This document shows, piece by piece, positions 8,170-21,797 of a stretch of 48,328 nucleotides of DNA. The first letter of the stretch is position 1. The number at the start of each line of letters is the position of its first letter. A program made the translations under genes and the position numbers. The notes below the pieces were generated by a model. It saw only the letters and a program-made list of their open reading frames with translations, was not told the origin of the DNA and made no database searches. This stretch comes from a virus, in IMG/VR virus record IMGVR_UViG_3300032116_000331, positions 1 to 48,328 of that record; one strand, given 5' to 3'.

Positions 8170-8681
8170 CGGTTGTCCCCTGTCATCAGCCAATACTCGG
8201 CGCGCGCTTCTTCGGGGAAGTGCGCGACCACGTTTTCGTCAATCCATCGCGTGAGCCCGGCGAACAGCTCGCCGAACTCGGTTTCGTCCATCGAGTCGAA
8301 GGCCAGTGAGCGCGCGACCTTCACCTGCGCCTTACCCAGCGGCCCAAGGTCGATCGCCTGCAGGTCGCACGCGGTGCCGGACTCGACCTGCGCGCGCTTG
8401 ATCGCGTCGTGAGCAGTCAGCCCGGCGAAGGCAGGCCAGTGATCCGCCAGCAACTGGCCCAGCGCGTGCACGAGGCGGTGGAACTTGACGTTGCGCGGCT
8501 TGCTCAGCTCTGCGCGCAGGCTTTGACCCTGGCCCAGCTTGAGGGCACGCAGTCGGCGGCTGTCGTAGGGGCTGGCAGGCACCAATGCGCCGATTTCCTC
8601 GCCGGTGGCAGGGTCCACGAGGCGGCGGGCCTCCAGGTAGACCGGCTGGCGCTTGGGCTTCTTGGCGGTGGCGGCCATCAC
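8166..8681 (-). CDS. DUF1367-like phage protein
   Basis: About 171 residues; GTG 8681 shares GTGA with the dnaB stop, and ATG 8678 is an alternative. The signature SKPRNVKFHRLVHALGQLLA, then HDAIKRAQVESGTACD and a C-terminal FGELFAGLTRWIDENVV, agrees with the DUF1367 family found beside replication and nin genes in lambdoid phages, where NinB-type recombination mediators also sit. The biochemical function of DUF1367 is not established; the family call is from memory of its pattern. Confidence 0.75.
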   Translation of the reverse strand: MMAATAKKPKRQPVYLEARRLVDPATGEEIGALVPASPYDSRRLRALKLGQGQSLRAELSKPRNVKFHRLVHALGQLLADHWPAFAGLTAHDAIKRAQVESGTACDLQAIDLGPLGKAQVKVARSLAFDSMDETEFGELFAGLTRWIDENVVAHFPEEARAEYWLMTGDNR

Positions 8682-20969: not shown

Positions 20970-21051
20970 CCGCCGGAGCGCCGCGGGAGTCGCGGCACCC
21001 AGAAAGATTGATGGTGCGGGCGGCGCGACCTGGAAATTGGAGCCGCCGGCA

Positions 21052-21082
21052 GCCCGCCGCCGTGAAAGGCGGGCGCTGTTTT
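21052..21082 (+). terminator. Possible intrinsic terminator or first hairpin of an RNA element
   Basis: GCCCGCC (21052-21058) pairs with GGCGGGC (21068-21074) across a nine-base loop, followed by GCTGTTTTC. The T run is weak. The right arm touches the start of the 25-position stem described next, so the two folds may exclude each other, as in an attenuator. Confidence 0.5.
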
Positions 21083-21237
21083 CGGTCTGGGCACTTGGCG
21101 GCGTGGATGGACACGCAGAACTGCCCCATATGAAGGCGGACGGAAGATTGGGGCCATCCCGGGTGGCATAGCTAAGAGTCTCCGAAGTCGCCAAGCCGGT
21201 ATCAATCCCGGCCCAAGTGCCCAGACCCAAGACAGCG
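21074..21237 (+). ncRNA. Candidate structured RNA element 1 (25-position closing stem)
   Basis: Bases 21074-21098 pair with 21213-21237: 15 uninterrupted Watson-Crick pairs on the inner side (GGTCTGGGCACTTGG with CCAAGTGCCCAGACC), one C-C mismatch, then nine more pairs including one G-U. The enclosed 114 bases can form a further hairpin next to the stem (21195-21212, GCCGG/CCGGC). It lies in the plus-strand operon between coding genes. No known RNA family was recognised; I rejected tRNA. Length and single mismatch resemble an RNase III substrate. Confidence 0.6.
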
Positions 21238-21283
21238 ACACACACGCCCCAGGCCGGGGCGCCTACTCACGATGGAGGGCGGT

Positions 21284-21535
21284 ATGTTGAAGGTATTCAG
21301 GTGCGGCGAGTACGACTGGTACGCAGCAGAGAACGCAGAGCAGGCGGCGCGTCTGTATTTGGAGCAGATCGGGGACGAGCTTGAAGAGCTTCCAGACGAG
21401 CTGACAGACGAAGAACTCGACAAGGAATTCCATGAGTTTGACGAGGACGAGAGCCCCACAGGTGGCATGACAACTTTTCGCAAGATGCTTGCAGAACACG
21501 GGACTGAGCCTGGTTGGCTCTGCGGCACGGAATGA
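21284..21535 (+). CDS. Small acidic protein between two RNA-fold candidates
   Basis: 83 residues from ATG 21284, chosen because GGAGGG lies just upstream; ATG 21272 would add four residues. It begins MLKVFRCGEYDWYAAENAEQ and is very acidic in the middle (IGDELEELPDELTDEELDKE, FHEFDEDE). The net charge and size recall DNA-mimic inhibitors of restriction or CRISPR systems, but charge alone is weak evidence and no family is recognised. It is flanked on both sides by long-stem RNA elements, which suggests its mRNA is processed or its expression is controlled post-transcriptionally. Confidence 0.7.
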   Translation: MLKVFRCGEYDWYAAENAEQAARLYLEQIGDELEELPDELTDEELDKEFHEFDEDESPTGGMTTFRKMLAEHGTEPGWLCGTE

Positions 21536-21542
21536 CCCCGCC

Positions 21543-21684
21543 GCCGCGCCCTAGCCCGGCGCGGCAGGTGGCAGCACCTTGAGAGCTGGCGGCTGCAGAA
21601 ACCGTCCGGACGGCGCGACAGTTTCGCGCTGGTCAGCGGCAGCAGGTGAGAAACCAGCTCAGCCGCCAGCTCTGAGGGTGTTGC
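21543..21684 (+). ncRNA. Candidate structured RNA element 2 (25-position closing stem)
   Basis: An 8-pair hairpin (GCCGCGCC 21543-21550 with GGCGCGGC 21558-21565) precedes a stem pairing 21571-21595 with 21660-21684: 14 perfect pairs inside, one G-G mismatch, then ten pairs with two G-U. Inside the 64-base loop lie CCGTCCGGACGG, a six-pair hairpin at 21614-21630 (GCGCGA/TCGCGC) and a CTGGT/ACCAG stem (21629-21656). Architecture matches element 1 although the sequence differs. Together with 21685-21797 this is a 262-base stretch without a gene. Confidence 0.6.
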
Positions 21685-21797
21685 ACGCGGGGGCGACCCG
21701 CAGCGGCTGAATGTCGTGTATGAGGCGCGCGGACGAATCGGCCACCGTGCCATGCCGGACTCGCACCCGGCCCCTCACCAATCAACAGGAGACACGC

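Follow-up and report, generated by a model that had tools for sequence, protein, structure and literature searches.

Covarying long stems with exchanged interiors and conserved linker hairpins between early genes of related or mosaic-sharing phages

In bacterial pre-rRNA processing, a long stem formed around unrelated sequence is cut by RNase III, and the enclosed part is a conserved functional RNA. Phage transcripts are cut by the same enzyme: according to the passages on the R1.1 substrate in PMC4858673, it releases the T7 early RNAs from a precursor. Inverted repeats also recur between early genes of Cluster K mycobacteriophages, where the ESAS, whose function is unknown, are 17-bp imperfect repeats of one consensus with 4–13-bp spacers and are linked to a start-associated sequence of 13 bp, GGGATAGGAGCCC, located between repeat and start codon (PMC3203893). 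For phage mosaicism, conserved boundary sequences are an established idea (discussed in PMC3029335), and Red-promoted mosaicism has been described (PMC2327257).

Here we analysed the early region of IMGVR_UViG_3300032116_000331, a virus record of 48,328 nt (48.3 kb) whose whole length is referred to as the window and whose gene set, with terminase, portal and integrase, is that of a tailed, temperate-type phage. Directly downstream of its YqaJ/RecE-type exonuclease and SSB genes lie two elements, each closed by a long stem, which by comparison with described systems are nearest to the ESAS in description and would work most like the T7 RNase III sites. In common with the ESAS (PMC3203893), the elements of this phage group recur between early genes as imperfect inverted repeats whose spacers vary; unlike them, they span 21–28 positions, belong to several sequence families and have spacers of mostly 30–136 nt, and the ESAS format of repeat, consensus and spacer was not found among them. 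The sequence GGGATAGGAGCCC is absent from 21238–21283 and 21701–21797, both of which were read directly.

With the T7 early RNase III sites (R1.1 and its kin) the elements share stems about two turns long that lie between early cistrons and contain a non-paired position, a largely free stem sequence, and the short messages with hairpins near their ends that would result; a T7-type double helix of at least about 20 bp between cistrons is found here as predicted RNA. The T7 sites, however, have small loops, whereas the interiors here are long and exchanged between phages, and they have no sequence relation to the present stems. Pre-rRNA stems likewise enclose unrelated sequence, but what is enclosed here is variable and mostly unstructured. 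As with conserved boundary sequences (PMC3029335), short conserved blocks stand at module joints and the flanking modules differ; in contrast to them, the blocks are hairpins or stem arms whose pairing is kept through sequence change, and the boundary description, although it applies, leaves this kept pairing unexplained.

A segment of one relative (G002) carries the AGCCGG...AACACCGGCAGC hairpin of Rfam family RF03044 (Proteo-phage-1), with 30.4 bits against a gathering score of 42; the family has no match in the window, including both elements. We rejected this identity because the score is sub-threshold and Proteo-phage-1 lies near lysis genes in Pseudomonas phages, not in early cistron gaps. 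At L018:4158–4231, a sub-threshold Proteo-phage-1 match, the specific hairpin is common to Pseudomonas phages phiAH14a and Solano, and GGGAAAGAC hairpins near the match recur in both phage groups.

Two long stems in the window

Both 25-position stems described by an initial, sequence-only reading are present (Table 1). Counted from the outside, element 1 consists of nine pairs, a C-C mismatch at pair 10 and 15 further pairs, with one G-U, and element 2 of ten pairs, a G-G mismatch at pair 11 and 14 further pairs, with two G-U. The term 'perfect match' used in that reading does not apply to these stems. The GC-rich hairpins that it placed before each stem are also found, and base 21074 is claimed twice, by the first of them and by the outermost pair of element 1. 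Its judgement that chance origin is unlikely was borne out: the folding energies correspond to z −3.8 (element 1) and −5.8 (element 2), none of 200 dinucleotide shuffles was as low, and both stems are closed in the MFE folds. When the entire window was scanned for long stems with spans up to 300 nt, elements 1 and 2 ranked as the top two (scores 55.5 and 55.0; next 46.0), and none of 30 block-wise dinucleotide shuffles of the window reached 55 (best 53.5). The arms of the two elements are unrelated in sequence, as had been stated, but the outer arm of element 2 is related to arms of three further stem families (3, 5 and 6) in relatives.

Table 1 Parts of the element region between positions 20980 and 21798 of the window
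Feature	Position	Strand	Remarks
Linker hairpin I (GCCGCGGGAGTCGCGGC)	20980..20996	+	identical in G002, G004
Linker hairpin A (CGGCAGCCCGCCGCCGTGAAAGGCGGGC)	21047..21074	+	hairpin proper 21052–21074; 28/28 or 27/27 in nine other phages
Element 1 left arm	21074..21098	+	pairs with 21213–21237; arm conserved in G004, G008
Element 1 interior	21099..21212	+	z 0.04, no more structured than shuffles
Element 1 right arm	21213..21237	+	pairs with 21074–21098
Linker K	21246..21283	+	hairpin 21246–21260, then ribosome-binding site GGAGGGCGG
Small acidic gene, 83 aa, phrog_5459-like	21284..21535	+	exchangeable occupant of the K–gene–D slot
Linker hairpin D	21542..21566	+	hairpin proper 21543–21565; at stop codon; same in G001, G002, G004, G008
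Element 2 left arm	21571..21595	+	pairs with 21660–21684; compensatory changes in G001, G002, W02
Element 2 interior	21596..21659	+	unalignable between phages; mildly structured, z −2.2
Element 2 right arm	21660..21684	+	pairs with 21571–21595
Linker E (GAGGGTGTTGCACGCGGGGGCGACCCGC)	21674..21701	+	5′ part is element 2 outer right arm; 3′ part is hairpin 21687–21701
Linker hairpin G	21749..21772	+	upstream of next gene's ribosome-binding site (start 21798); conserved in G001, G002, G004, G007

The Rfam scan that the initial reading had proposed gave no match to either element; gathering and relaxed Rfam scans and ARAGORN returned nothing credible for them, and no tRNA or tRNA-like sequence was found in the window by ARAGORN or RF00005. 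The resemblance of GCCGGTATCAATCCCGGC in element 1 to a tRNA T-arm was discounted, since hairpins of the form GCCGG-loop-CCGGC also occur in linkers G and H and in G008, none of them with a tRNA score. The closely packed same-strand genes suggest that transcription runs across the whole region.

Covariation and module exchange among related phages

Relatives were gathered by Blast, protein and linker searches, which yielded ten further phages plus near-identical fragments. Cy-LDV1 (W02) matches the window at 88% identity across 31 kb and the isolated phage Cr-LKS3 (W01) at 84%; among the IMG/VR contigs, G001 is 83%, G002 84% and G003 85% (over 2.8 kb) identical, G004, G007 and G008 have little DNA alignable with the window, and G005 and G006 have none except an exact copy of linker A. 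The records of Cr-LKS3 and Cy-LDV1 are assigned to Cylindrospermopsis, yet their G+C content is 66–67%.

The window terminase has a relative in a Pseudomonadota genome, Proteobacteria bacterium UBA2363 (L058), and no linkers occur in the 22 kb surrounding it. Linker A was found neither in GTDB genome contigs nor in 399 genomes from the order of UBA2363, and weak linker E–G matches in five genomes of that order come without a strong long stem. In the middle of locus L065, from a genome of the same order, a gene start, CAATCGACAGGAGACACGCC, resembles that of the window phage group, and several near-repeated hairpins (TTCTTTCCCC.GAAAG; GGCTGT.CC.ACGGTTTCAGGG) adjoin it.

In all ten relatives, the non-coding stretches of the early region consist of the types of part seen in the window: hairpin linkers of 15–31 nt, identical or nearly so between phages, and between them segments of 50–140 nt that are mostly unalignable. 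Some segments recur in several phages, and a pool is therefore being reshuffled; the segment after linker A is 88% identical between G004 and G005, and G004 shares a 233-nt block with G007 and a 272-nt block with G008, each at 100% identity. In every phage read, the elements of the early array lie between genes and in gene sense. The initial reading had treated elements 1 and 2 as a pair, but they do not form a unit: G002, W02 and G001 have only element 2 of the two, G004 and G008 have element 1 followed by other elements, and the G002 locus wholly lacks element 1, so that its site is not essential. Genes further downstream (window 21798 onward; L018, L011, L024, L027, L030) have near-identical starts (ATGACCACGACAAACGACGG..., MTDTTNAGPVLPE...) and differing bodies, a protein-level counterpart of a conserved-boundary mosaic.

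Little of the DNA shared between the phages is as well conserved as the stem arms, those of element 1 being common to the window, G004 and G008 and those of element 2 to the window, G002 and W02. The claim that shape is shared while sequence differs gained support from covariation in related phages, the comparison that the initial reading had put forward. In G001 the outer half of element 2 is the same, but the inner half is replaced by GAGAGAGCCGCCCCG/CGGGGCGGCTCTC, perfectly paired again; further changes are A-U to G-C and C-G to U-G in W02 and G-C to U-A in G002. Across the four phages, two-sided compensatory changes affect 10 of the 25 pairs, which are not ten independent events because eight stem from the G001 block replacement. 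In the aligned element 2 arms 95% of cells pair (in G001 a single cell, that of pair 8, is unpaired), as against 37–52% when the partner arm is slid.

Further stems, counted after elements 1 and 2 as families 3 to 7, were found in the relatives: family 3 (CACTCTCCGGCC/...GAGGGTG) in G001, G003, W01, G004, G007 and G008, family 4 in G004 and W01, family 5 in G005 and G006, and families 6 and 7 in G005. The families are small (2–7 sequences each), and in most of them a mismatch falls at pair 8–11 from the outer end. In rows that were chosen because they pair, the outer pairs can be aligned across families 2, 3, 5 and 6 and show covariation. Starting the search from the linker side removed this bias: all six linker E copies, in six phages and with three different left partners, close a long stem, as do all three copies of the element 1 right arm. 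Their scores are 36.5–55; 300 random anchors gave a median of 16.5 and reached 39.5 at most. A scan of viral sequences for further CACCTTTGAG...CTCAAAGGT elements gave chance matches only, with a gap range too long to recover G006. Outside the array studied, G005 (L040–L041) has another 26-position stem, TATCTCCAAAGG...CCTTTGGAGATA, at 8472–8565 of the reverse complement.

The sequence enclosed by the stems behaves differently from the arms. Identity between phages, compared for the window with G002, the window with W02 and G004 with G008, stops at the inner stem end or no more than one or two bases from it, or else at the stop codon of the gene upstream. Enclosed interiors measure 4–136 nt across families, mostly 30–136 nt; those of element 1 (114 nt in the window, 118 in G004 and 78 in G008) are alike only in their first few bases. 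Compared with shuffles, interiors have a mean z of −0.36, with −0.8 to −2.2 for those of element 2 and values near 0 for most others. Family 3 encloses a 30-nt interior in G001, G003 and W01, whereas in G004, G007 and G008 its stem is closed by the loop GCGA alone. Because identity is limited by the junctions, interiors resemble shuffles and family 3 occurs with a bare loop, selection acts on the stem, and the interior of at least one family looks dispensable.

Possible functions of the stems

We tentatively favour a reading in which the elements serve as exchangeable RNA punctuation in an early operon, with stems that are cut by RNase III or that insulate or protect the message, and that are shuffled at their linkers. 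The elements would be co-transcribed with the genes, each folding into a stem of about 21–28 positions, and this stem, not the enclosed 4–136 nt, would be the working part. Host RNase III would cut it, or it would otherwise insulate and protect the mRNA, and the polycistronic early transcript could thus be split, much like that of T7, into short messages that carry hairpins close to both ends, with K or G ahead of the ribosome-binding site and D by the stop codon. RNase III-type processing is the best candidate reading of the stems. RNase III cuts about one turn from a helix end, and the mismatch at pair 8–11 is compatible with cutting about one helical turn in. The near-identical linkers and arms would offer short stretches of homology for swapping gene and loop modules, possibly aided by the phage's RecE/YqaJ-type exonuclease and SSB, and such linker-based exchange fits both the conserved-boundary idea (PMC3029335) and Red-promoted phage mosaicism (PMC2327257).

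In phages with little else in common, the shape of an RNA appears to be selected and the sequence inside it exchanged. Should the stems be processing sites, transcript punctuation would double as the joints of a modular phage genome, and gene-expression architecture would be tied directly to mosaic genome assembly.

Foremost among the alternatives, although we consider it unlikely, is that the interiors are what matters: each element would be a cassette for a small non-coding RNA (a regulator, a host antisense RNA or an anti-defence decoy), and the stem a holder that releases or displays the payload. Interiors are indeed swapped as whole units between conserved arms and change faster than genes, as arms-race payloads would (those of the window and W02 are unalignable, against 88% identity elsewhere); the element 2 interiors are mildly structured, and a neighbouring W02 segment is tRNA-like (RF00005, 35.4 bits). 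Yet the structure of most interiors does not exceed that of shuffles, the interiors hold no recurrent motif and no Rfam match, and family 3 also occurs without an interior. Selection on the stem speaks against a payload and favours processing or insulation, but is not decisive for families 1 and 2, and the keeping of 50–130 nt in a compact genome sits awkwardly with irrelevant loops. The tRNA-like segment (L005:5088–5158), placed between linker E and the gene that follows, is degenerate; it scores above the RF00005 gathering score, and ARAGORN makes no call.

Ranking next, and also doubtful, is a role mainly in DNA, with the linkers and arms acting as short conserved boundaries for recombinational module swaps and the inverted repeats serving recombination or arising as a by-product. 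Near-identity of linkers and arms in phages that share little else, their coincidence with module joints, the established boundary idea and the YqaJ-type exonuclease and SSB encoded by the phage all speak for it. Boundary homology, however, needs no complementarity between arms, yet G001 changed its inner arms and stayed paired, and every element is on the coding strand. Moreover, a symmetric finder that treats G-T and A-C alike counted 30 G-U against 10 A-C among the non-Watson–Crick pairs in gene sense (21 and 9 when only distinct contexts are counted), an excess that modestly suggests selection acting on the + strand RNA and, with it, an RNA rather than a DNA function.

We give less credence still to a library of non-coding RNA cassettes, in which phages would maintain conserved, paired RNA brackets and linker hairpins and exchange unrelated RNA payloads within them as whole units, directed against the host or rival phages. 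Gene-sense stems and hairpins of such strength between cistrons could also suit transcription attenuators, terminators or put-like antitermination RNAs that set polymerase reach, but this is highly improbable, as terminator-like sites are not in excess (4 found against 4.8 expected) and antitermination RNAs depend on sequence, whereas the inner sequence is freely replaced here. A promoter role was rejected with the terminator role, there being no excess of such sites either.

An RNA partnership between the elements and the small acidic protein, raised by the initial reading, was not supported. Linker K copies precede unrelated genes in G002, G004 and G008, so the slot between K and D changes its gene, and judged from these gene orders the acidic gene is an occupant of an exchangeable slot rather than a partner of the RNA. 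At the other edge of the slot, the TAG stop codon of the upstream gene sits inside the D hairpin in G001, G004 and G008. Integron cassettes, too, place small genes between structured recombination-type sites; the linkers here, in contrast to attC, belong to several unrelated sequences, and the core sites RYYYAAC/GTTRRRY are absent at the arm ends of the window elements, as checked by eye. A relative of the acidic gene, 56% identical, lies at L008:2925–3320 without such a stem element, between two imperfect palindromes with RYYYAAC/GTTRRRY-like ends that resemble integron attC sites; being flanked in this way, the small acidic gene seems also to travel as an integron-type cassette.
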